Below are positions 44,761 to 60,696 of a stretch of DNA of 64,000 nt, in pieces. Location of the stretch: assembly GCF_001905385.1 (NCBI RefSeq), contig NZ_LIPF01000018.1, forward strand, positions 1 through 64,000. The letters are read 5' to 3'. The notes under the pieces are model-generated. The model did no database searches. It was not told where the DNA came from and saw only the letters and a program-made list of their open reading frames with translations. The stretch comes from Streptomyces sp. CB02414. GTDB taxonomy: Bacteria > Actinomycetota > Actinomycetes > Streptomycetales > Streptomycetaceae. The stretch's first letter is position 1, and each line of letters starts with the position of its first letter. The position numbers and the translations under genes are program-made.

Positions 44761-44858
44761 ACGAGTACCGTGTCCTGGATTTTCCCTCTCGCCGCCCACT
44801 TCGTCCTCTTCAATCCGCACGAAGGCCAGTGACCGGGTGAAGGGGCGGAGACTTGGCG

Positions 44859-47800
44859 ATGCAGCAGCTTGAACGGGCCGTGGCGGTGGTGGGCGTGGGA
44901 TGCCGGCTTCCCGGAGGCATCACCGACCTGGACGGCCTGTGGGCCGTGCTGCGCGACGGGCGCGACATGGTCGGCGAGATGCCCGCCGACCGGCTGCCCC
45001 GCGACCGGACCGTCGACCCGGGAGGCGTGCGGCCGGGCCGCAGCTACACCGCCGCCGGCGGTTTCCTCGAGGACGTCGCCTCGTTCGACGCCGCCTACTT
45101 CGGCATGTCACCCGCGGAGGCCCGGCACATCGACCCGCAACAGCGGCTGCTGCTGGAGATGGCCGCCGAGGCGCTGGACGACGCCGCCATCCCCGCCGAG
45201 TCGCTGGCCGGGTCGGACACCTGCGTGTACGTGGGCGTCTCCGACCCCGGATACGGCGTGAACCTGTCCATGATGCAGGACCACACGAGCCCGCACACCA
45301 TGCCCGGCGCCACCCTGTCCATCACGGCGAACCGGATGTCGTACGCGTTCGACCTGCGCGGGCCGAGCATGGCCGTGGACACGGCCTGCTCCTCCGCCCT
45401 GGTCGCCCTGGACCGGGCCTGCCGCACGCTGCGCGAGGGCCCGGGACGCGTCGCCCTGGTCGGCGGCGTCAACGTACTGTCCAACCCCTATTCCTTCGCC
45501 GGATTCTCCTACGCGGGCATGCTGTCGCGCCGCGGACGCTGCGCGGCGTTCTCGGCCGACGCCGACGGGTTCGTCCGCGCGGAGGGCGGCGCGGTGCTCG
45601 TCCTCAAGCGCCTCACGGACGCGGTGACGGACGGCGACCGCGTCCACGCCGTACTGGCCGCCACCGGCAACAACACCGACGGCCGCAGCACCGGAATGAT
45701 CGTCCCCAGCGCCGAGACCCAGGAGGCGCTGCTCCACACGGTCTACGCGGAGGCCGGGATCGAACCGGACGACCTGGTGTACGTCGAGGCCCACGGCACC
45801 GGCACCCAGGCCGGTGATCCGGCGGAGGCCGAGGCCATCGGCCGGGCCCTGGGCCGGCGCCGCAGCCGCGGACCGCTGCCGATCGGCTCGGTGAAGACGA
45901 ACATCGGCCACCTGGAACCCGCCGCCGGAATGGCCGGCCTGCTCAAGGCGATGCTGGTCCTGCGCCACCGGCTGGTACCGGCGTCCCTGCACGCCCTTCC
46001 CCTCAACCCCCGCATCGACTTCGACGGTCTGGGACTGGCCCCCGCCGTCGACCCCGTCCCGCTGGACCCGGGGCGGAGGGCAGCCGTCGGAGTGAGTGCC
46101 TTCGGCTTCGGCGGAGCCAACGCCCACGCCGTCGTGGTCCAGCCGCCCGCCGGTCGGCGGCCCGAGCCCAAGCCGGTGCCGGACGGGCGCCCGCTGCCAC
46201 TCGTCGTCTCCGCCCGGACCGCCAAGGCGCTGAAGCAGATGACCGCCCGTATGGCGGAGCGACTGCGGAACGCCGAACCGGCGGACTTCTACGACGTGGC
46301 CCACACCAGTACCGTACGGCGCACCGCGCACCCGCACCGCGCCGCCGTACTGGCCGCCCACCCGCAGGAGGCCGCCCGGCAGCTGGACCGGCTGACGGCC
46401 GCGGAGCCCGCGAGTGGGGCCATGGTCCGCACCGGCGAACGGGACGGGACCGCGTTCGTGTTCTCCGGCAACGCCTCCCAGTGGCCGGGCATGGCCGCCG
46501 ACCTGCTGCGGGGCGAACCGGTCTTCCGGGGAGCCGTCCAGGAGGCCGACGCGGCCCTGGCCCCCCACCTCGGCTGGTCGGTGGCCAAGGAACTGGCCCA
46601 CCCGTCCCCCCGGAAATGGCAGCGCACCGAAGTGGCCCAGCCCGCCCTCTTCGCCGTGCAGGTGGGCCTCACCGCGCTGCTGGCCTCGCACGGCGTGCGG
46701 CCGCGGGCGGTGACCGGACACAGCGTCGGCGAGGTCGCCGCCGCCCTCGCCGCCGGGGCCCTCACCCTGGAACAGGCCGCGCTGGTGATCGCCGAACGCA
46801 GCCGCACCCAAGGCGCCACCGCGGGCCGGGGCCGGATGGCCGCCGTCGGCCTGCCCGAGGCACAGGCACGTGAGGAACTGCTCCGCCACGACGGCGCACT
46901 GGAGATCGCGGGAATCAACAGCGACCGGGACGTGACCGTCGCCGGGAACGCCGACGCCCTCGCGGCCTGGGGAGCCGAACTGACCGGCCGCGGCGTCTTC
47001 TTCCGTGAGCTGGACCTCGACTACGCCTTCCACAGCCGGGTCATGGACCCCATCAGGGAGCCACTCCTCGACGCCCTCGACGGACTCGAACCCGCCCCGG
47101 CCCGCATCCCGTTCGTCTCCACCGTCACCGGCACCCCGGTGGACGGGCCCGGTCTCGACGCCGTGTACTGGTGGCGCAACGTCCGTGAACCCGTACGGTT
47201 CGCCGAGGCCGCCGCTCACCTCGCCACCGAGCACGCGGGCGTCCTGGTCGAGATCGGACCGCACCCGGTGCTGCGCCCTTATCTGCGCCACACCCGCGCC
47301 ATCTGCGTCCCCACCCTGCACCGCGACGGGGACGGCCTCCGCAAGACCGCGGCGGCCGCCGCCGCCGTACTCGCCGCCGACACCGCGACCGACTGGCGGC
47401 AGCACTTCCCGCGCCCCGGCCGGGTGGTCGACCTGCCCGCCTACGCGTGGCAGCACGAACGGCACTGGCACGGCACCGCGCAGGACCTGGTCGCCCACAC
47501 CAGCGGCAGCGGCCTGCTGGATCATCCGCTGGTGGGCGAGCGGATGCCCGCCCCGCACCCCGTGTGGCACGGCACCGTCGAGCCGCAACTGGTGCCCTGG
47601 CTGGGCGATCACAGGATCGGCGGCGACGTCCTCATGCCGGCCGCCGCCTACGTGGAGATGGCCCTGAGCGCCGGCCGCCGGGCCATGGACCGTCCGGTCG
47701 AGGTACGGCACCTGGAGATCGGCCGCCCACTGTCCCTGCGGTGGCCGGACCCGACGCCGGCCGCCCTGCAGACCGCGGTCACCCCCGGCGACGGCGCCGT

Positions 47801-50800
47801 GACCATCAGCGTCCGTGAGGAACATGGCGGTGAGTGCCTGCCCGTGGTCCGCGCACAGGTCCGCAGCCTGCTCGGCACGGCACCGGCCCCGCTCGACGTC
47901 GACGCGCTCCGGGCACGCTGCGACCGGAGCGTCGACGGCCCGGGCTTCTACCGCATGTGCCACGACATCGGTCTGCACTGCGGGCCGGACTTCCAGCTCA
48001 TCGACCGCGTCGACACCGGCGACGGAGAGGCACTGGTCGGCTACCGGCTGGCGCACCCCGCCGACGCCTACACCGCCCACCCGGTCCTGATCGACGCGCC
48101 GTTGCAGGCCACCGTGGCCCTCGCCGACGCGCAGGGGGAGTCCGCCGCGTTCCTGCCGACCGTGTTCGGAGCCGTACGCGTGTGGCGCACTCCCGCGCCC
48201 ACCGGCGTCGTGCATCTGCGCCGTCGCAGCCGCAGCGCCAACGAGATGTGCTGGGACATCACCTACGCCGATCCCGACGGCACGGTCACCGTCGAGATCG
48301 ACGGCTGCCGCACCCGTCGGGCACACCTGGCCGAACGCACCCCGCTGACCGTCCAGCGCACCGTCCTCAGGGCCGCCCCCCACCCGGACGCCGCCGCCCC
48401 GCCCTCCCCGCTTCCCACGCCCACCGAGGTGGCGTCCGCGGCCGAGCCGCGCATCGCCGCCGCCCGCACCGCCCTGGACGACGGGGGCCACCGCCGGTTC
48501 ACCGCGGCCGCCGAGCAGGCCGGTGCCCATTGCTGGGCCGGGACGCTGCGCGGTCTACTCGCCGAGCCGGCGGCCCCGTTCTCGATGGACGACCTGGTGG
48601 CCGGGGGCCTCCAGCCCCGGCACCGGCGGCTCGCCCGGCTGATGCTGCCCCTGCTGGCCGAACACGGTCTCGCCCGGCCGGCCGGGCAGACCTGGCGGCT
48701 CAGCGGCGCGGAGACCCACGCCGAGGCCCTGCTGCGCCGCCTGGTCGAGGACCATCCCGCGTACGGCGCCGAGACACTGCTGCTCAACCGGCACCTGCGC
48801 CGGCTGCCCGACGCGGTGCGGGGACACGCCGACGCACGCGAACTCCTGCCGGCCGGGGACAGCGCCTACGAGCAACTCCACGAGTCCGGCCCCGCACTCC
48901 GCTTCGCCCACCGTGCCGTGCAGGCCCTGCTCGGCGACATCGTCGCCCGCTGGCCCGCCGACCGTCCGCTGCGCGTCCTGGAGTTCGGCGCGACCACCAC
49001 CGCCCTGACGGCAGCGGTCCTGCCCGTGCTGCCGGCCGACCGGACCCGCTACACCTGCACCGCGCCCAACGGCAGTACCCTCACCCGCGCCGAACACCGC
49101 TTCTCGGCCCACGGCTTCGTCGACTACCGGACTGTGAACCCGAACGCCGATCCGGCCGACCAGGGCCTGACCCGAGGCGGATTCGACCTCGTCCTCGCGG
49201 GCGACGCCCTGCACACCACCACCGACCTGGCCGCGACCCTGCGCCGGCTGCACGGCGTGCTGGCCCCCGGCGGACACCTGCTGGTCACCGAACCGCACCA
49301 CGCCCCGCTCCAGGCCCTGCTGTACGGCACGCTGAACGACTTCTGGGAGCGTGGGGACCACACCCTGCGTCCCGTCTCCCGCGTCCTCGCCCGGGACCGG
49401 TGGGTGCCACTGCTGCACCGGTGCGGCTACTCCGGTGTGGTGCAGACCGGGCCCGAGGACCGCACCGTCCTCCTCGCCGCAGCGGATCACGGCCAGGCGG
49501 CGGCCACCACCGACACAGCGCGGCCGGTTCCGGGCACCACCTGGGTGATCGCCGTCGAGGACGACACCGAGACGGCGACCGCGCGAGCTCTGGCCGCCCG
49601 CCTCGGAAAGGCCGTCGTGATCACCGCGCCCGCCGAGGCCGCCGCCTGGAAGGCGGCCCTGCCCACGGCCTCCGATCCGCGCGTCGTCCTGCTGCTCGCC
49701 GCACCCGGCCCGCACGAGACCGTCACGCGGACCACCCGCCGCGCGGCCCTCCTTCGCTCCCTGGCCACCGCCTACGACGGCCCGACAGGCGGAACCAACC
49801 CTCAGGTATGGCTCGTCACCCGCCCGACCGGCCTCTTCCCGGCCCCGGAGCAGCCGGCCCACCCGGTGGACGCGGCCGTCTGGGCGGCCTGCCGCACCCT
49901 CGCCAACGAACGCCCGGACCTGAGCCTGCGCCGCCTGTCCTGCCACCGCACCGGTGACGCCGACACCGACGCCCACCGCCTGGCCGACGAGCTTCTCGCA
50001 CCCGGCGACGACGACCGGAGCGCTCGGGAGGACGAGATCGTTCTGACCGCACGGGGCCGGTTCGTGCCCCGGCAGGTACAGCACCCGGTGAACGAACCCC
50101 CGGGCGTCCCCGCCGGTACGCCGTTCATCCTGCAAGCCCGTGATCCGGGCCTGCACCGGCGGCTCGTCTGGCGGCAGACGGACGCCCCCGAGCCGGGGCC
50201 GGGCGAGGTGGCACTGGAGATGCGGGCCGTGGCACTGAACTACCGCGACCCCATGCGGGCCAACGGCCTGCTGCCGCCCGAGGCGGTGGAGAACAGTCCG
50301 CTCGGCCGCGGACTGGGCACCGACGGTGCCGGCATCGTGCGCGCCGTGGGAGCGGGGGTGGAGGACCTGAAGCCCGGCGACCGGGTCTGCGGCCTCGTGC
50401 CCGCCGCACTCGCCTCGCACGCCACGACCCCCGCCTTCGCCGTCGTGCGTGTTCCCGACGAGATGAGCTTCACGGAGGCGGCGACCTTCCCCGTCGCCTT
50501 CCTGACCGTTCATCAGACACTGGTCCACCAGGCCCGTCTCGATGCCGGGGAGACCGTGCTCGTCCACGGCGGAGCCGGGGCGGTGGGCCTGGCCGTCCTG
50601 CAGTGCGCCCGCCGGCAAGGCGCCCGCGTCATCGCCACCGCCGGCACGGAGACCAAACGCGACCTGCTGCGCACGCTCGGCGTCGAGCACGTCCTCGACT
50701 CCCGCAGCCTGGACTTCGTCCCCCGGGTGCGGGAGCTGACCGGTGGTCAGGGCGTGGACGTCGTGGTGAACTCGCTCAGCGGCGAGGCCATCGCCCAGGG

Positions 50801-52235
50801 CCTGGACCTGCTGCGCCCCAACGGCCGCTTCATCGAACTCGGCAAGAGGGACATCTTCCTCAACACCCCGATCACGCTGCGCCCCTTCCACCGCAGCCTC
50901 ACCTTCATCGGCTTCAACCTCGACACCGTCGTGGACGACCCGGCCCTGCGAACCCGGCTCGTCGAGGACTTCGACGCGGCGATCGGCTCCCGCACCTACC
51001 GGCCCCTGCCCCACTCGGCCTACCCCGCCGCCCGCGTCGACGAGGCCTTCCACCTCCTGCAGCACTCCCGGCACACCGGCAAGGTCGTCGTCACCTTCGA
51101 CCCCCTGGACGAACCCGTACCCGTCGAACCCGCACTCGGCTCCCTCCGCCTCGACGGCGAGGGCACCTACCTGATCACCGGCGGACTCAGCGGGCTCGGC
51201 GCCGCCACCGCCCGCCTGCTGGCCGACCGCGGGGCCCGGCACCTGGCCCTGCTCTCCCGCAGCGGACCCGGCGCCCCCGGTGCGCACGCCCTGCTCCGGG
51301 AACTCACCGACCGCGGTGTGCGGGCCACCGCACACGCCGCCGACGTCACCGAGGAATCGGCGCTGCGCCGGGTCCTCGCCGCCGTGGACGCCACCGGGCA
51401 CGCCCTGCGGGGCATCGTGCATGCGGCGATGCACATGGACGACGCGGTGCTGTCCGACCTCACCGACGACCGATTCGCCGCCGTCCTGGCGCCCAAGGCG
51501 GCGGGCGCGGCCCTTCTGGACGACCTCACCGCCGACCGCGACCTGGACCTGTTCCTCGCGTACTCGTCCGTCTCCGCCAGTATCGGAAACCCGGGACAGT
51601 CCGCCTACGCGGCCGCCAACGCCTACCTGGAGGCCCTCGTCCGGGCCCGGCGCGGGGCCGGACGGACGGGTACGGCACTGGCCTGGGGGCCGATCGGCGA
51701 AACGGGCTACGTCGCCCGCAGCGGCATGGAGGCCGCCATGGCCGGACGCGGCCTCGAACTGCTCACCCCCACCGAGGTACTGACCACCACCGACCACCTC
51801 CTGGCCGCCGGCACCGACGTCGCAGGAGCCGGTCGTTACCGCTGGGGGACCGCACGCCATCTGCTGCCTGCCCTGGCCACCGCCCGGTTCGCCCCGCTGG
51901 CTCCGGCGTCCTCCGCGGCGTCCCCGGACGCCCGCAACGAGCTCCTGAACGCGCTGGCGGACCTCCCCGCGGACGAGGCGGTGCGCCAGATCACCGACGT
52001 GGTCACCCGTCTCCTCGCCGGTGTCCTGCAAACCGACCCGGCCGACCTCGACCCCACGGTCAACGTCACCGACTTCGGACTGGACTCGCTGCTGGGTATG
52101 CAGTTCCTGATGCAGGCCCGGGATTTGTTCGACATCCGCCTCGGACCGGCCGATCTGGCCACCGGGCGCACCCTGGCCCACTTCGCTCGTCTGGTCCACC
52201 AGCGGCTGGACCTGGGCGCCGACGAGCGGCAGTAG
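44859..52235 (+). CDS. Type I polyketide synthase, single fully reducing module
   Basis: A 2,458-residue modular enzyme. From the TTG at 44853 the order is: KS about 8-430 (C179 in DTACSSA, H314 in EAHGTGT, H353 in NIGHLEP); AT 535-830 (S624 in GHSVGE; specificity motif YAFHS at 724-728, between the malonyl HAFHS and methylmalonyl YASHS forms); DH 888-1130 (H920 in GDHRIGGDVLMP, D1081 in LIDAPLQ); methyltransferase-like region about 1190-1560 with a broken SAM motif (VLEFGATTTALTA); ER about 1760-2080 (HGGAGAVGLAVLQ); KR about 2100-2290 (TGGLSGLG, SAYAAANAY); ACP about 2370-2450 (GLDSLLGM). There is no thioesterase. The layout is like iterative lipid-making synthases. ATG at 44859 is better spaced from AGGGGCGGAG than the TTG. 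It probably supplies acyl chains to OleA. Confidence 0.93.
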   Translation: MQQLERAVAVVGVGCRLPGGITDLDGLWAVLRDGRDMVGEMPADRLPRDRTVDPGGVRPGRSYTAAGGFLEDVASFDAAYFGMSPAEARHIDPQQRLLLEMAAEALDDAAIPAESLAGSDTCVYVGVSDPGYGVNLSMMQDHTSPHTMPGATLSITANRMSYAFDLRGPSMAVDTACSSALVALDRACRTLREGPGRVALVGGVNVLSNPYSFAGFSYAGMLSRRGRCAAFSADADGFVRAEGGAVLVLKRLTDAVTDGDRVHAVLAATGNNTDGRSTGMIVPSAETQEALLHTVYAEAGIEPDDLVYVEAHGTGTQAGDPAEAEAIGRALGRRRSRGPLPIGSVKTNIGHLEPAAGMAGLLKAMLVLRHRLVPASLHALPLNPRIDFDGLGLAPAVDPVPLDPGRRAAVGVSAFGFGGANAHAVVVQPPAGRRPEPKPVPDGRPLPLVVSARTAKALKQMTARMAERLRNAEPADFYDVAHTSTVRRTAHPHRAAVLAAHPQEAARQLDRLTAAEPASGAMVRTGERDGTAFVFSGNASQWPGMAADLLRGEPVFRGAVQEADAALAPHLGWSVAKELAHPSPRKWQRTEVAQPALFAVQVGLTALLASHGVRPRAVTGHSVGEVAAALAAGALTLEQAALVIAERSRTQGATAGRGRMAAVGLPEAQAREELLRHDGALEIAGINSDRDVTVAGNADALAAWGAELTGRGVFFRELDLDYAFHSRVMDPIREPLLDALDGLEPAPARIPFVSTVTGTPVDGPGLDAVYWWRNVREPVRFAEAAAHLATEHAGVLVEIGPHPVLRPYLRHTRAICVPTLHRDGDGLRKTAAAAAAVLAADTATDWRQHFPRPGRVVDLPAYAWQHERHWHGTAQDLVAHTSGSGLLDHPLVGERMPAPHPVWHGTVEPQLVPWLGDHRIGGDVLMPAAAYVEMALSAGRRAMDRPVEVRHLEIGRPLSLRWPDPTPAALQTAVTPGDGAVTISVREEHGGECLPVVRAQVRSLLGTAPAPLDVDALRARCDRSVDGPGFYRMCHDIGLHCGPDFQLIDRVDTGDGEALVGYRLAHPADAYTAHPVLIDAPLQATVALADAQGESAAFLPTVFGAVRVWRTPAPTGVVHLRRRSRSANEMCWDITYADPDGTVTVEIDGCRTRRAHLAERTPLTVQRTVLRAAPHPDAAAPPSPLPTPTEVASAAEPRIAAARTALDDGGHRRFTAAAEQAGAHCWAGTLRGLLAEPAAPFSMDDLVAGGLQPRHRRLARLMLPLLAEHGLARPAGQTWRLSGAETHAEALLRRLVEDHPAYGAETLLLNRHLRRLPDAVRGHADARELLPAGDSAYEQLHESGPALRFAHRAVQALLGDIVARWPADRPLRVLEFGATTTALTAAVLPVLPADRTRYTCTAPNGSTLTRAEHRFSAHGFVDYRTVNPNADPADQGLTRGGFDLVLAGDALHTTTDLAATLRRLHGVLAPGGHLLVTEPHHAPLQALLYGTLNDFWERGDHTLRPVSRVLARDRWVPLLHRCGYSGVVQTGPEDRTVLLAAADHGQAAATTDTARPVPGTTWVIAVEDDTETATARALAARLGKAVVITAPAEAAAWKAALPTASDPRVVLLLAAPGPHETVTRTTRRAALLRSLATAYDGPTGGTNPQVWLVTRPTGLFPAPEQPAHPVDAAVWAACRTLANERPDLSLRRLSCHRTGDADTDAHRLADELLAPGDDDRSAREDEIVLTARGRFVPRQVQHPVNEPPGVPAGTPFILQARDPGLHRRLVWRQTDAPEPGPGEVALEMRAVALNYRDPMRANGLLPPEAVENSPLGRGLGTDGAGIVRAVGAGVEDLKPGDRVCGLVPAALASHATTPAFAVVRVPDEMSFTEAATFPVAFLTVHQTLVHQARLDAGETVLVHGGAGAVGLAVLQCARRQGARVIATAGTETKRDLLRTLGVEHVLDSRSLDFVPRVRELTGGQGVDVVVNSLSGEAIAQGLDLLRPNGRFIELGKRDIFLNTPITLRPFHRSLTFIGFNLDTVVDDPALRTRLVEDFDAAIGSRTYRPLPHSAYPAARVDEAFHLLQHSRHTGKVVVTFDPLDEPVPVEPALGSLRLDGEGTYLITGGLSGLGAATARLLADRGARHLALLSRSGPGAPGAHALLRELTDRGVRATAHAADVTEESALRRVLAAVDATGHALRGIVHAAMHMDDAVLSDLTDDRFAAVLAPKAAGAALLDDLTADRDLDLFLAYSSVSASIGNPGQSAYAAANAYLEALVRARRGAGRTGTALAWGPIGETGYVARSGMEAAMAGRGLELLTPTEVLTTTDHLLAAGTDVAGAGRYRWGTARHLLPALATARFAPLAPASSAASPDARNELLNALADLPADEAVRQITDVVTRLLAGVLQTDPADLDPTVNVTDFGLDSLLGMQFLMQARDLFDIRLGPADLATGRTLAHFARLVHQRLDLGADERQ

Positions 52236-55544: not shown

Positions 55545-56027
55545 TCAGGCGGAGTGGGCCTCCCAGCCCGCGTCATGGTGTATCCGGCTCGCCGCGGTGT
55601 CGCAGAAGGCTTCCAGGCCGGCCAGCAGGGCGGTCCGTTTCGCGGCGGGCATCTGGTCCAGAACCGCTCGCAGTTCCCGCTCCCTTCGCTCGCGCAGGTC
55701 GTCGAGGAAGGCGCGGCCCCGCTCGCTGAGATACAGGCGCACTTCGCGCCGGCTGGTCGCGCTGACGGCGCGTTCGACGAAGCCGGAGGCCTGCAGCCGG
55801 TCGCACAGCCGGCTGGTCGACGGCGGAGTGGAGGCGAGGGAATCGGCGAGCGTGCGCAGGTTGATGCCCTCGTGGTGTTCGAGGATGAACAGCACGCGCA
55901 ACTGGGACGCCGAAGCGGGCGCCGTGGAGGCTCTGCCCCAGAGCACTTCCAGCAGCTCCGCGGCCGTGGACGTCACGCGGGCGACCTCGTCGGGCCGGGG
56001 GCGGGGACGGGAAGCAGTCACGGTCAC
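55545..56027 (-). CDS. MarR family transcriptional regulator
   Basis: A 160-residue winged-helix regulator. SQLRVLFILEHHEGINLRTL leads into the recognition helix region STPPSTSRLCDRLQASGFVER, followed by the wing SATSRREVRLYLSERG and a C-terminal dimerisation helix. MarR proteins repress efflux or detoxification genes and respond to phenolic or oxidising ligands. The GTG at 56027 has only a weak GCGAGAG site, and an in-frame GTG 6 bases on is possible. It diverges from the SpoIIE-like gene at 56176, the likely target. Confidence 0.88.
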   Translation of the reverse strand: MTVTASRPRPRPDEVARVTSTAAELLEVLWGRASTAPASASQLRVLFILEHHEGINLRTLADSLASTPPSTSRLCDRLQASGFVERAVSATSRREVRLYLSERGRAFLDDLRERRERELRAVLDQMPAAKRTALLAGLEAFCDTAASRIHHDAGWEAHSA

Positions 56028-57486: not shown

Positions 57487-57516
57487 AGCTCGGTGGTTGC
57501 ACGAAACCACCGAGCT
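57487..57516 (+). terminator. Second hairpin, 12-bp stem, before the B12-switch operon
   Basis: AGCTCGGTGGTT and AACCACCGAGCT form perfect 12-bp arms with a 6-base loop. A run of six T follows 24 bases later (57541-57546). With the preceding hairpin it isolates the operon starting at 57591. If the operon promoter lies upstream it could instead act as an attenuator. Confidence 0.65.
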
Positions 57517-57590: not shown

Positions 57591-59201
57591 ATGACTTCTT
57601 CCCCGGCCCGCCACCGCACCGGTGCCGTCAGCGCGATGAGCGCTGCCACCGCCCCCTATCCGGTGGTGGTCATAGCCGCGGACGGGCACGTCGTAGAACT
57701 CAACGACGCCGCCTCGGTGCTCCTGCCGGCCGCCCGTCCCGGCCGGCGGCTGCGGTCCCCTTCCTGGCTCGCCACCGCCGCCGGGAAGACCGCCGTGAGT
57801 GGCGCGGTGGGTGATCGGTTCTTCTCCGCGCATCCGTCCGTCCCGCCGGCGGGTGGTGTCGCCTGGTGGCTCGTGGACGAGACCGAACACCAGTCGCTCC
57901 TCCTCGAACTCGAAGCGGAACGCGAGCGCACTCAGTTCCTCAACCAGGCCTCCACCGCGCTGTCGGCCTCCCTGAACCTGGACCGGTGCATGGAGGTCAC
58001 CGCGCGCCTGGCCACCGCGCACCTGGCGGACGCCGCGCTGGTCATCGCCCCCAGCGCGACCAGCAAGCTGCCGATGGTCGTCTGCGACCAGCGCGGTCGA
58101 CTTTCTCACGGCACCGTCGCGGGACCCCCGGACACCGTGCCGGGACTCACCGAGGCGCTGCGGGGCTTCCCGCCTGTCCCCTCGCAGTGGATAGACCCGG
58201 CTGCTGCTCCGCGGTGGCTCGTGCCCGAGGGATTCGGAGAAGTCGGATCACTGGCCATCACGCCGCTTCCTGGCCACGGAGTGCCGGCGGGTGCGCTGAT
58301 CCTGCTGCGCCGGGTGCGGAAGGTCGCGTTCACGGAAGGGGAAGAGGTGATGGCGAGGCTCTTCGCCGCCCGGGCCGGCGCGGCGATGTCGGCCGCGCGT
58401 CTCTACGCGGAGCAGAACACGATCTCCGACACCCTCATGCGTGAACTGCTGCCGCCCACCCTGCGACAGGTGGAAGGAGTGGAGTTCGCGGGCGCATACC
58501 GTCCGAGCAAGGACACAGAACGCGTCGGCGGTGACTTCTACGACGTTCACCCGCCCGGCGACGACTTCCCCGAGACCCTCGCCGTACTCGGAGACGTGGC
58601 AGGCAAGGGGCTGGAAGCCGCGGTACTCACGGGCAAGATCCGCAACACCCTCCACGCTCTGCTCCCCATGGCCGACGACCACACCAGGATGCTGCGCCTG
58701 CTGAACAACGCGATGCGCACCAGCCATCACACGCGTTTCGCCACCCTCGTGCTGGCCTCCGTCCGCCGGGAGGAACGTGATGTGCTGCTGCGCGTCACCG
58801 CGGCCGGCCACCCCGCCCCGTTGATCATGCGAAGTGACGGGACCGTGGAGGAGGCCGACACCAACGGAACCCTGATCGGTGTCCTGCCCGCCGTCACGGC
58901 CCGAACCGCACACGTACGACTCGCACCCGGGGAAACCTGCCTGCTGTTCACCGACGGTGTCACCGAAGCGAAGGGCGGCCCCCTGGGCGACACCATGTTC
59001 GGCGAACAGCGTCTGCGCCGTGCGGCGGCGGAGTGCGTCGGCATGCCGGCCGCGGCGATCGTGGAGCGGATCCAGATGATCACCGCGCAGTGGCTCGGCG
59101 CCGGCCGTCACGACGACATCGCCGTGATGGCCATCAGTGCCCCGCGCGGCAGCCACCTCAGTGCCGTAGACGGAACGACACGGGGCAGGTATACGGCATG
59201 A
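57591..59201 (+). CDS. PAS-GAF-SpoIIE phosphatase of the B12 switch operon
   Basis: A 536-residue PP2C-type phosphatase. A short PAS-like domain (PVVVIAADGHVVELNDAA) is followed by a GAF domain (about 120-290) and the SpoIIE domain, whose metal motifs are intact: GGDFYDVHPP, GDVAGKGLEAAVL, FTDGVTEAK and GRHDDIAVMAI. GAGKG in place of GHG is an accepted variant. Its stop overlaps the start of the cobalamin-protein gene (ATGA at 59198), and the STAS gene follows in the same manner, so its natural substrate is most likely the phosphorylated serine of that STAS protein. ATG at 57591, with an in-frame ATG at 57636 as alternative. Confidence 0.92.
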   Translation: MTSSPARHRTGAVSAMSAATAPYPVVVIAADGHVVELNDAASVLLPAARPGRRLRSPSWLATAAGKTAVSGAVGDRFFSAHPSVPPAGGVAWWLVDETEHQSLLLELEAERERTQFLNQASTALSASLNLDRCMEVTARLATAHLADAALVIAPSATSKLPMVVCDQRGRLSHGTVAGPPDTVPGLTEALRGFPPVPSQWIDPAAAPRWLVPEGFGEVGSLAITPLPGHGVPAGALILLRRVRKVAFTEGEEVMARLFAARAGAAMSAARLYAEQNTISDTLMRELLPPTLRQVEGVEFAGAYRPSKDTERVGGDFYDVHPPGDDFPETLAVLGDVAGKGLEAAVLTGKIRNTLHALLPMADDHTRMLRLLNNAMRTSHHTRFATLVLASVRREERDVLLRVTAAGHPAPLIMRSDGTVEEADTNGTLIGVLPAVTARTAHVRLAPGETCLLFTDGVTEAKGGPLGDTMFGEQRLRRAAAECVGMPAAAIVERIQMITAQWLGAGRHDDIAVMAISAPRGSHLSAVDGTTRGRYTA

Positions 59202-60334
59202 GCAACCGCGCCATCCACATCGACGACGCATCGGGCCGGCCCGAGGACGACGCCCGCTTGCTCACCCCGGCTCGTGGCGACGAGCGAGCCCTGCCGTGGG
59301 TGGACGAACTGTGGACGGCCGTCCGCGCCGGAGACGAATTCTCAGCCGTCGACGTCGTCGACGAAGCGCTCGACTCGGGACTCGGCCCGGAGACCCTGCT
59401 GCTGGACGTCATCGGCGCCGTCCAGCGCAAAGTCGGCATCGAATGGGCCGCGAACCGGATGAGCGTGGCCGACGAGCACGCGGCCACCGCCATCAACGAC
59501 CGTGTCATCGCCTCCCTGCCCACACGGCGCCCCACCACGCCGCGCGGACGTGTCACGGTCGCCTGCGTGGACCAGGAATGGCACGCACTGCCGGCGCGAC
59601 TGGTGGCCGAAACACTGCGACTGCGGGGCTGGCGGGTCGAATACCTCGGCGCCCAGGTGCCGACCGCCCACCTGATCGGCCACCTGCACCGCACCGGGCC
59701 GGACGCGGTCTGCCTCTCCAGTTCCCTGCCCACCCGCCTGCCGCATGCCCACAGCGCGATCACCGCTGTCCAGGCCGTCGGCACACCTGTCATGGTCGGC
59801 GGCCTCGCCTTCGGCGCCGACGGCCGCTACGCCCGCCTGCTGGGGGCCGACGCCTGGGCGCCCGACGCTCGCGCGGCCGCGGACAGACTCGCCGCCGGCC
59901 CTCTGCTCCAGCCGCCGCCCGCCCATCAGGCGATCGATGACCTGCCGCATCTGGCCGACCAGGAGTACACCATGGTCGCCAAGTCATCCACCCGCCTCGT
60001 ACGCGACACCTTCCACCGTCTGGAAGAGCGTCTCCCGGTAATGCGCGACCACACCGACGAACAACGCGAGCGCACTGCCGAGGACCTCGCCCACATCGTG
60101 CACTTCCTGACCGCGGCCCTGTACGTCGACGCATCCGAGATCTTCACCGATTTCCTCACCTGGACAGCAGAGGTACTCGCCGCCCGAGGTGTTCCCGCGC
60201 AGTGCCTCCTGCCCGGCTTGGAACTACTGGCGGAGCAATTGCGAGACTTCCCGCGTGCCCGCCGCCTCATCGACGCCGGGCGCAACGCCCTCGCCACCTC
60301 CCTTGACCCTCGACACGCTGGACGAACACCGTGA
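59198..60334 (+). CDS. Cobalamin-binding regulator with photoreceptor-type W-x9-EH motif
   Basis: A 378-residue cytoplasmic protein. Residues about 30-105 form the helical B12 cap. In it W83 and E93-H94 (WAANRMSVADEH) match the W-x9-EH signature of CarH-type adenosylcobalamin photoreceptors. Residues 117-245 form the Rossmann-like B12-binding domain, with the lower-ligand candidate H129 in VDQEWHALPARL and SSSLPTRLPHAHSAI and VMVGGLAFGADG downstream. Residues 255-370 are a helical output region of unknown type. It has no DNA-binding domain, unlike CarH and LitR. Four-base overlaps tie it to a phosphatase and a STAS gene, so it probably controls a partner switch in response to light or B12. 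Confidence 0.88.
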   Translation: MSNRAIHIDDASGRPEDDARLLTPARGDERALPWVDELWTAVRAGDEFSAVDVVDEALDSGLGPETLLLDVIGAVQRKVGIEWAANRMSVADEHAATAINDRVIASLPTRRPTTPRGRVTVACVDQEWHALPARLVAETLRLRGWRVEYLGAQVPTAHLIGHLHRTGPDAVCLSSSLPTRLPHAHSAITAVQAVGTPVMVGGLAFGADGRYARLLGADAWAPDARAAADRLAAGPLLQPPPAHQAIDDLPHLADQEYTMVAKSSTRLVRDTFHRLEERLPVMRDHTDEQRERTAEDLAHIVHFLTAALYVDASEIFTDFLTWTAEVLAARGVPAQCLLPGLELLAEQLRDFPRARRLIDAGRNALATSLDPRHAGRTP

Positions 60335-60696
60335 CCACCTCACCAGACGCAGACCCCACTGCCGCCTCACCCTCCGTCGCCGGCCCGCACACCGTGCGCC
60401 TGGCCGTCGACGGCGACCTGGATTACGACACCTGCGGTGAACTGCTCCTCCAGGTGCGGCTGGCCCTCCACGAACGAGCGGACGCCGAGGACCTGCGGCT
60501 GGACTGCAGGAAGCTCGGAGTGGTGGATTCCATGGGTCTGTCCACACTCCTGCAGATCCACCGTTCCGCCTGCCAGGACGGTATCGGCTTCCACTTGGAC
60601 AACATAGGTCCGGCACTGAAGCGGCTGCTCGAACTCACCGGGACCTATGAGCACCTGAGCAGCTCCCAGAGTACGGCGACCACGACCGACGAGTGA
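60331..60696 (+). CDS. STAS-domain anti-sigma factor antagonist
   Basis: A 121-residue STAS protein of the SpoIIAA/RsbV/BldG type. The first strand is VRLAVDGDLDYDTCGELL, and the phosphorylatable serine is S67 in LGVVDSMGLSTLL (D-S-x-G motif). In its unphosphorylated form such a protein binds an anti-sigma kinase and frees a sigma factor. GTG at 60331 overlaps the cobalamin-protein stop (GTGA). The first gene of the operon encodes its likely phosphatase. No kinase is in the operon. The RsbW-like protein encoded at 6806 or one elsewhere could act. Confidence 0.92.
   Translation: MTTSPDADPTAASPSVAGPHTVRLAVDGDLDYDTCGELLLQVRLALHERADAEDLRLDCRKLGVVDSMGLSTLLQIHRSACQDGIGFHLDNIGPALKRLLELTGTYEHLSSSQSTATTTDE

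Follow-up and report, generated by a model that had tools for sequence, protein, structure and literature searches.

Photocobilins join a B12 module to a photoglobin, and the photocobilin SasPcob of Saccharothrix syringae is described in PMC10979010 as binding both adenosylcobalamin (AdoCbl) and biliverdin, with green light photoconverting the AdoCbl and red light doing so as well when biliverdin is bound. In that description His108 of SasPcob is the lower ligand, Trp61 and Glu71-His72 belong to the adenosyl pocket, and Asp270 and Trp296 contact biliverdin; the Trp and Glu-His residues (W-EH) form a light-associated signature (PMC10979010, PMC11796333), and photoglobins are also treated in PMC11796333 and PMC10151467. 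The first of these papers further reports that a photocobilin controls a diguanylate cyclase, even as a separately added protein, and that a network analysis pointed to potential interactions of SasPcob with STAS, SpoIIE and PP2C-like proteins; in 2024 it called the function of standalone photocobilins 'less clear' (PMC10979010). Here we describe a full-length relative of SasPcob, P0001, encoded in the middle of an overlapping three-gene operon at positions 57591-60696 (+ strand) of a 64,000-nucleotide stretch of Streptomyces sp. CB02414 DNA (contig NZ_LIPF01000018.1, positions 1 to 64,000; this whole stretch is hereafter the window), where it lies between the genes for a SpoIIE-type phosphatase (P0002) and a STAS protein (P0003).

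P0001 has the same B12 residues and the same biliverdin contacts as SasPcob, for which SpoIIE and STAS proteins are predicted partners in the published account; it differs from SasPcob in a longer N-terminus, modelled with low confidence, and in having a resolved three-gene overlapping operon. AbDPcob (8J2Y), a photocobilin-diguanylate cyclase, likewise combines a B12 module and a photoglobin and has its enzyme under light control, but there the enzyme is fused and the biliverdin-contact Asp is a His, a replacement that is tied to weak biliverdin binding (PMC10979010), whereas the presumed partner enzyme of P0001 is separate and the Asp is kept as D296. The RsbU/RsbV/RsbW systems (e.g., Rv1364c, 3KE6) resemble the operon in pairing a SpoIIE-type phosphatase with a STAS protein that has a DSxG motif; in CB02414, however, the sensor is a separate photocobilin, and the operon includes neither a kinase nor a sigma factor. 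CarH and LitR share with P0001 an AdoCbl module with the Trp, the Glu-His pair and the lower His. Unlike P0001, CarH lacks a globin and binds DNA through a MerR-type domain; in P0001, which has a photoglobin, the Pfam search found no helix-turn-helix (HTH). YtvA, which gives light input to SigB through the stressosome, is also a photoreceptor that feeds a STAS-based switch, but it is a flavin LOV-STAS fusion and its chromophore is unrelated.

The photocobilin and its two operon partners

Read from the sequence, the phosphatase gene (57591..59201, +; 536 residues; Pfam SpoIIE 4.3e-40) is joined by an ATGA stop/start overlap (59198..59201, +) to the photocobilin gene (59198..60334, +; 378 residues), which in turn is joined by a GTGA stop/start overlap (60331..60334, +) to the STAS gene (60331..60696, +; 121 residues; Pfam STAS_2 1.1e-12). 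A phmmer search aligned residues 36-370 of P0001 with SasPcob (8J2X, E 4e-88; 8J2W, E 4.6e-88); the match to 8J2Y, a photocobilin domain, covers residues 45-363 (E 8e-48). The AlphaFold2 model of P0001 has a mean predicted local distance difference test score (pLDDT) of 88.6, with residues 1-23 below 50, and Foldseek matched it to 8J2X and 8J2W with template-modelling (TM) scores of 0.91-0.92 by target length and 48% identity to SasPcob. Based on the full-length phmmer alignment together with this structural match, we identify P0001 as a photocobilin.

The B12 module consists of a four-helix cap (B12-binding_2, residues 36-106; 59303..59515, +; Pfam 3.5e-14) and a Rossmann B12-binding domain (residues 117-227; 59546..59878, +; Pfam 5.9e-18). 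In the cap, W83 (59444-59446, +) aligns with SasPcob Trp61 and E93-H94 (59474-59479, +) with Glu71-His72, and in the Rossmann domain H129 (59582-59584, +) aligns with the lower-ligand His108. The spacing from Trp to Glu in P0001 is nine residues (W-x9-EH); PMC10979010 writes the signature as W-(10)x-EH, and the positions align with Trp61 and Glu71-His72. The C-terminal photoglobin (residues about 252-370; 59951..60307, +), presumed to bind biliverdin, is covered by the SasPcob alignment and is all-helical in the model; its D296 (60083-60085, +) and W322 (60161-60163, +) align with the biliverdin contacts Asp270 and Trp296, and this region, the C-terminal 120 residues of the protein, carries no Pfam label and belongs by phmmer to the same family as the remainder. 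P0001 retains every mapped SasPcob cofactor residue (W83, E93, H94, H129, D296, W322), the offset between chain and paper numbering having been set by hand, consistently with Trp61, His72, His108, Asp270 and Trp296. Pfam found only B12-binding_2 and B12-binding in P0001, and no HTH or other DNA-binding domain.

An earlier note on this DNA, made from the letters alone, had already read the two overlaps, the W-x9-EH spacing of W83, E93 and H94 with H129 at the lower-ligand position, and the absence of a DNA-binding domain from the middle protein, and in all of these it agrees with the sequence, the SasPcob alignment and the Pfam search. Its account of the B12 part of the protein stands; the C-terminal photoglobin with its biliverdin contacts had been overlooked, as had a second SpoIIE-like gene and a divergent MarR gene farther upstream (see below). 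The note's further proposal, light sensing by P0001 through AdoCbl, is strongly supported as a prediction from full-length homology to structurally and photochemically characterized photocobilins.

The AlphaFold2 model of the phosphatase P0002 (mean pLDDT 75.3, predicted TM score 0.54, from a 12-row alignment), for which the top Foldseek match was the RsbU-RsbW domains of Rv1364c (3KE6), shows a PAS-like domain (residues about 20-96), a GAF-like domain (130-241), a linker helix (249-278), a PP2C domain (290-516) and a disordered tail; the labels PAS and GAF describe the order of secondary-structure elements in the model, the Pfam PAS match being just E 0.067. Of 108 homologue rows, 106-107 retain aspartates D315, D335, D455, D508 and D509, with gaps in the remainder, and 2 have another residue in place of D318; the conserved aspartates presumably include the PP2C metal ligands. 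On the other side of the photocobilin, the STAS protein P0003 has Ser67 (60529-60531, +) in a D-S-M-G motif, and the Ser of this DSxG motif is kept in 92 of 94 STAS homologues. By analogy with other STAS proteins, we take Ser67 to be the putative phospho-acceptor.

Gene order and cofactor residues among homologues

We compared 132 loci, including that of CB02414 and excluding one unrelated match (L002); dropping eight with identical photocobilins left 124, and the 109 of these that scored at least 400 bits against the photocobilin family profile form what we call the close family. The 80 named loci whose flanks are counted below are the best 80 of 371 by similarity to P0001, and for this reason the conservation counts describe the close family and not all photocobilins. 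In the close family, SpoIIE lies directly upstream of the photocobilin in 107 of 109 homologues (one exception, L107, having an N-terminally truncated photocobilin) and STAS lies downstream in 94. Loss of the W-EH residues from most homologues with the same gene order had been named beforehand as the outcome that would speak against the earlier proposal; W83, E93 and H94 are present in 108 of the 109, the remaining row being truncated, with a gap. H129 and D296 are each kept in all 109, and W322 in 108, again with one gap. With this degree of conservation, the W, E, H and H positions are not a chance match to the signature. The order SpoIIE-photocobilin-STAS was also seen in four Mycobacterium records (L106, in which SpoIIE is in two pieces, L128, L131 and L133).

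Among 107 pairs of phosphatase and photocobilin genes, 102 have a stop/start overlap from which the photocobilin frame is open (74 ATGA, 28 GTGA), and two of the five remaining pairs have a TTGA overlap that is likewise in frame and open. These 107 pairs, which also served for the phosphatase tail, include the lower-scoring L050 and exclude L120, for which the phosphatase match missed the distance rule, and are not the same 107 as in the count of upstream SpoIIE genes. The tail in question is a conserved C-terminal peptide of the phosphatase, HLSAVDGTTRGRYTA (residues 522-536; 59154..59198, +), with the motif HLSAVxGxTxGR[YF]TA and an HL..[VA] core found in 81 of 107 homologues. As the codons for HLSAV differ in their third positions among homologues, the tail is conserved as protein, although the codons of its final residues coincide with the ribosome-binding region of the photocobilin gene and may be under extra constraint. 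A scan of 2.38 Mb for the tail motif gave 94 matches, of which 88 were assigned automatically to a P0002-type phosphatase and the other 6 looked, on visual inspection, like broken, misread or variant phosphatase copies. We considered the tail as a STAS-docking peptide, since STAS is present in 78 of 81 pairs with the tail vs 16 of 26 without it (Fisher 2.6e-5), and rejected it: among independent pairs on the tree, about 4 in 9 carried information, and almost all of these pointed the expected way (median p 0.125); the association, which does not survive correction for descent, is suggestive only.

Among 199 Streptomyces genomes, a photocobilin match (1e-20) was found in 75 and a phosphatase match (1e-90) in 64; when photocobilins of at least 50% identity are counted, these also occur in 64 genomes, and 63 genomes have both. 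One genome has the phosphatase alone, and another has a partial photocobilin next to pieces of the phosphatase gene. Counted as gene copies, 70 of 74 phosphatases adjoin a photocobilin. Two of the unpaired phosphatases (L185, L188) show no trace of a photocobilin and run on to the STAS gene, and a STAS match follows all four unpaired copies (in two pieces in L187). In L186 and L187 the phosphatase is retained and the photocobilin is reduced to remnants.

Twelve further Streptomyces photocobilins of 35–47% identity (L165-L176) all have SpoIIE directly upstream (as a piece in L165 and in two pieces in L168), and the STAS profile had no match in the 8.7-13 kb around them; because these distant photocobilins keep SpoIIE without a STAS match, the phosphatase appears to be the more constant partner and STAS an optional one. 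All four B12 residues are kept in the twelve. The bilin site is altered, the position of W322 being Phe in 11 with one gap, and that of D296 being Asp in 5, Phe in 5, Val in 1 and a gap in 1. Since the B12 residues are kept despite the altered bilin site, B12 sensing looks general in phosphatase-coupled photocobilins, and an intact bilin site is, by these predicted cofactor residues, what marks the group of P0001. On a FastTree tree of 117 sequences, which left out L120 and six loci with broken or cut frames, the state of the bilin site changes 2 times and the presence of STAS at least 12 times. When genomes were sampled evenly across the phylum, a match at 1e-20 turned up in 18 of 296. The 15 more distant rows from this sample keep the W, E, H and H positions without exception, as do all 20 rows of another set, which shares four genes (L181-L184) with the 15; six of the 15 match just the B12 part (about 200 residues), and in the nine longer rows the position of D296 is Asp in 7 and that of W322 is Trp in 9.

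A proposed light-gated phosphatase and competing explanations

On balance we think it probable that the photocobilin serves the SpoIIE-type phosphatase, whose gene directly precedes its own, as a regulatory subunit that responds to light, and the conserved, overlapping gene pair argues for the post-translational coupling to a phosphatase that the earlier note had predicted. In the dark, AdoCbl would be held base-off/His-on by H129 at the interface of a dimer, with W83 and E93-H94 above it. Green light would break the Co-C bond, as would red light by way of biliverdin in the photoglobin (D296, W322), and the changed photocobilin would alter the PP2C activity. In turn, P0003 (at Ser67 in DSMG), related STAS proteins or both would have their phosphorylation changed by the phosphatase and would then bind, or not bind, an anti-sigma-type HATPase kinase. 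For homologues, PMC10979010 describes chromophore binding, photochemistry and light-dependent control of an enzyme by protein contact; for the CB02414 operon, the contact with the phosphatase, the STAS protein as substrate, which kinase takes part, the output and the sign of the light effect are the parts that we infer. More broadly, we see about an even chance that in many actinobacteria a SpoIIE-type phosphatase has a dual-chromophore (B12 and biliverdin) photoreceptor as its dedicated regulatory subunit, that the two form a partner switch gated by green/red light together with STAS and, in certain genomes, a linked kinase, and that in the distant Streptomyces copies, which have no STAS next to them, the sensor of a related phosphatase is altered and perhaps uses B12 alone.

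In favour of this reading, anti-sigma-type kinases are enriched close to the operon in its relatives. A kinase lies within 5 kb of it in 24 of the 80 named relatives (flanks of up to 10 kb; the kinase model was built from 28 of 30 seeds, as contig ends cut the other two), and by midpoint 25 HATPase kinases fall within 5 kb vs 7 in about equal sequence farther out (p 0.0013, ignoring relatedness). Seventeen of the linked kinases form one single-linkage group at ≥45% identity, and most of 14 kinase layouts adjoin a further STAS gene, on one side of the operon or the other and facing either way; in L086, for instance, a kinase and a STAS gene are divergent from the SpoIIE-photocobilin-STAS operon. 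Against the Pfam HATPase_c_2 cut-off of 27.4, four of six linked kinases scored clearly above, one passed narrowly (30.7) and one fell just below (27.3). The CB02414 genome has 88 HATPase_c_2 matches, 67 of them above cut-off, and when the linked kinase of L086 was used to look for a CB02414 counterpart, the best matches had 43–47% identity over part of the length and no clear orthologue was found.

Several observations weigh against a photocobilin-gated phosphatase switch of this kind. The conservation of gene order is partly shared descent, as the 80 loci were chosen by similarity to P0001. STAS is absent in 15 of 109 close homologues (L071 is covered for just 0.4 kb downstream), the complete photocobilin of L059 has no SpoIIE in the 0.9 kb upstream of it (repetitive sequence running to the contig end; L059:1-921), and 14 of the 15 distant B12 proteins from the phylum sample have no SpoIIE of this kind directly upstream, within 1.5 kb. 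The one heme oxygenase in the CB02414 genome is a biliverdin source and fits the proposed sensor, but as a discriminating profile heme oxygenase was rejected, since it is present in 181 of 199 Streptomyces genomes, and in 61 of the 64 with a photocobilin. Because the effect of SasPcob on the test diguanylate cyclase reverses its sign without biliverdin (PMC10979010), no direction of the light effect can be predicted. No anti-sigma-type kinase was found beside the operon in CB02414, the nearest on the contig being about 52 kb off; 56 of the 80 relatives have no kinase within 5 kb, and the kinase count includes close species (e.g., L094, L098, L110). Finally, sigma-70 region 2 (model made from 30 of 52 matches) is not enriched in the 80 flanks, with 10 found vs 10.2 expected from genome density, and lies within 5 kb of the operon in 2 of the 80 loci. 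With no such enrichment, and no kinase found beside the operon, the sigma-factor output that the earlier note had proposed is unsupported. One sigma-70 region-2 match that lies outside the window, some 5.7 kb farther downstream than the STAS gene, is taken as incidental.

Alternatively, the photocobilin might act mainly on the STAS protein (or on a STAS-kinase complex), the phosphatase being an independent input that has a PAS/GAF-like sensor itself and is no more than a neighbour in the operon. The STAS gene directly downstream in 94 of 109 close homologues, its conserved Ser, the GTGA overlap in the window and the sensor-like N-terminus of the modelled phosphatase would all fit such an arrangement, but we regard it as unlikely: all 12 distant photocobilins keep SpoIIE with no STAS match nearby, and the presence of STAS changes at least 12 times on the tree whereas SpoIIE is missing in just 2 of 109. 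Less probable still, and to our minds distinctly doubtful, is that the cell senses its supply of AdoCbl (B12), or of heme/biliverdin, rather than light. The same chromophore pockets would serve for this, and PMC10979010 reports an AdoCbl-dependent affinity for biliverdin and a difference in enzyme activity between apo and AdoCbl forms; however, the same paper reports light effects for both photocobilins studied, and the light-associated W-EH signature is invariant in close homologues. A CarH-like light-regulated transcription regulator, suggested by the resemblance of the B12 module to CarH (NF052513, E 3.3e-14, but 52.8 bits vs a cut-off of 400), is highly improbable and was rejected, as the Pfam search of P0001 found no HTH and the rest of the protein is a photoglobin.

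Upstream genes and the place of the operon

Upstream of the operon lies the gene for a second SpoIIE-like protein, P0004 (56176..57336, +; Pfam SpoIIE 1e-36), whose motif VTNGMGEG has an Asn at the position that is Asp in P0002, and P0004 is possibly a pseudophosphatase. Relatives of P0004 near operons have Asn at this position in 17 of 20 cases and Asp in 3, and one or another such relative occurs in 18 of the 80 flanks. A P0004 match was found in 99 of the 199 Streptomyces genomes and is over-represented together with the photocobilin (both in 51 genomes, photocobilin only in 13, P0004 only in 48, neither in 87; Fisher 4e-9, ignoring descent). Divergent from P0004 is a gene for a MarR-family regulator (55545..56027, −; Pfam MarR 3.9e-12), relatives of which occur in 24 of the 80 flanks. 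Ahead of the phosphatase gene, a 12-bp inverted repeat with no mismatch (57487..57516) was considered as a family-wide operator and rejected, its 20-base core being exact in 2 of 234 loci (L054, L061). About 5 kb upstream of the operon, a 2460-residue frame (44853-52235, +) is, by eye, modular polyketide synthase-like.

The P0001 operon belongs to a known kind, since its sensor family, the photochemistry and the association with SpoIIE and STAS are already described in PMC10979010. The earlier note had seen in it a post-translational alternative to CarH; the coupling in this idea is supported, but its novelty is not, having been largely anticipated by that paper's naming of SpoIIE and STAS as possible partners. 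New here are the near-constant overlapping pairing with the phosphatase, the difference in the bilin site of the distant set, the linked kinases and the phosphatase tail. Our literature search found no functional study of a SpoIIE-photocobilin-STAS operon and no study of these four points, part of which may be held in the Schneider 2022 photoglobin paper or in the supplements of PMC10979010, which were outside the search.

Near-exclusive pairing with a single type of phosphatase, through overlapping genes, gives standalone photocobilins a concrete candidate partner, and the conservation found makes the cellular role of the sensor easy to test. If the photocobilin is indeed a light-dependent subunit of this phosphatase, actinobacteria would have a light input, from green to red, to phosphatase/STAS signalling, which would be useful for optogenetics.

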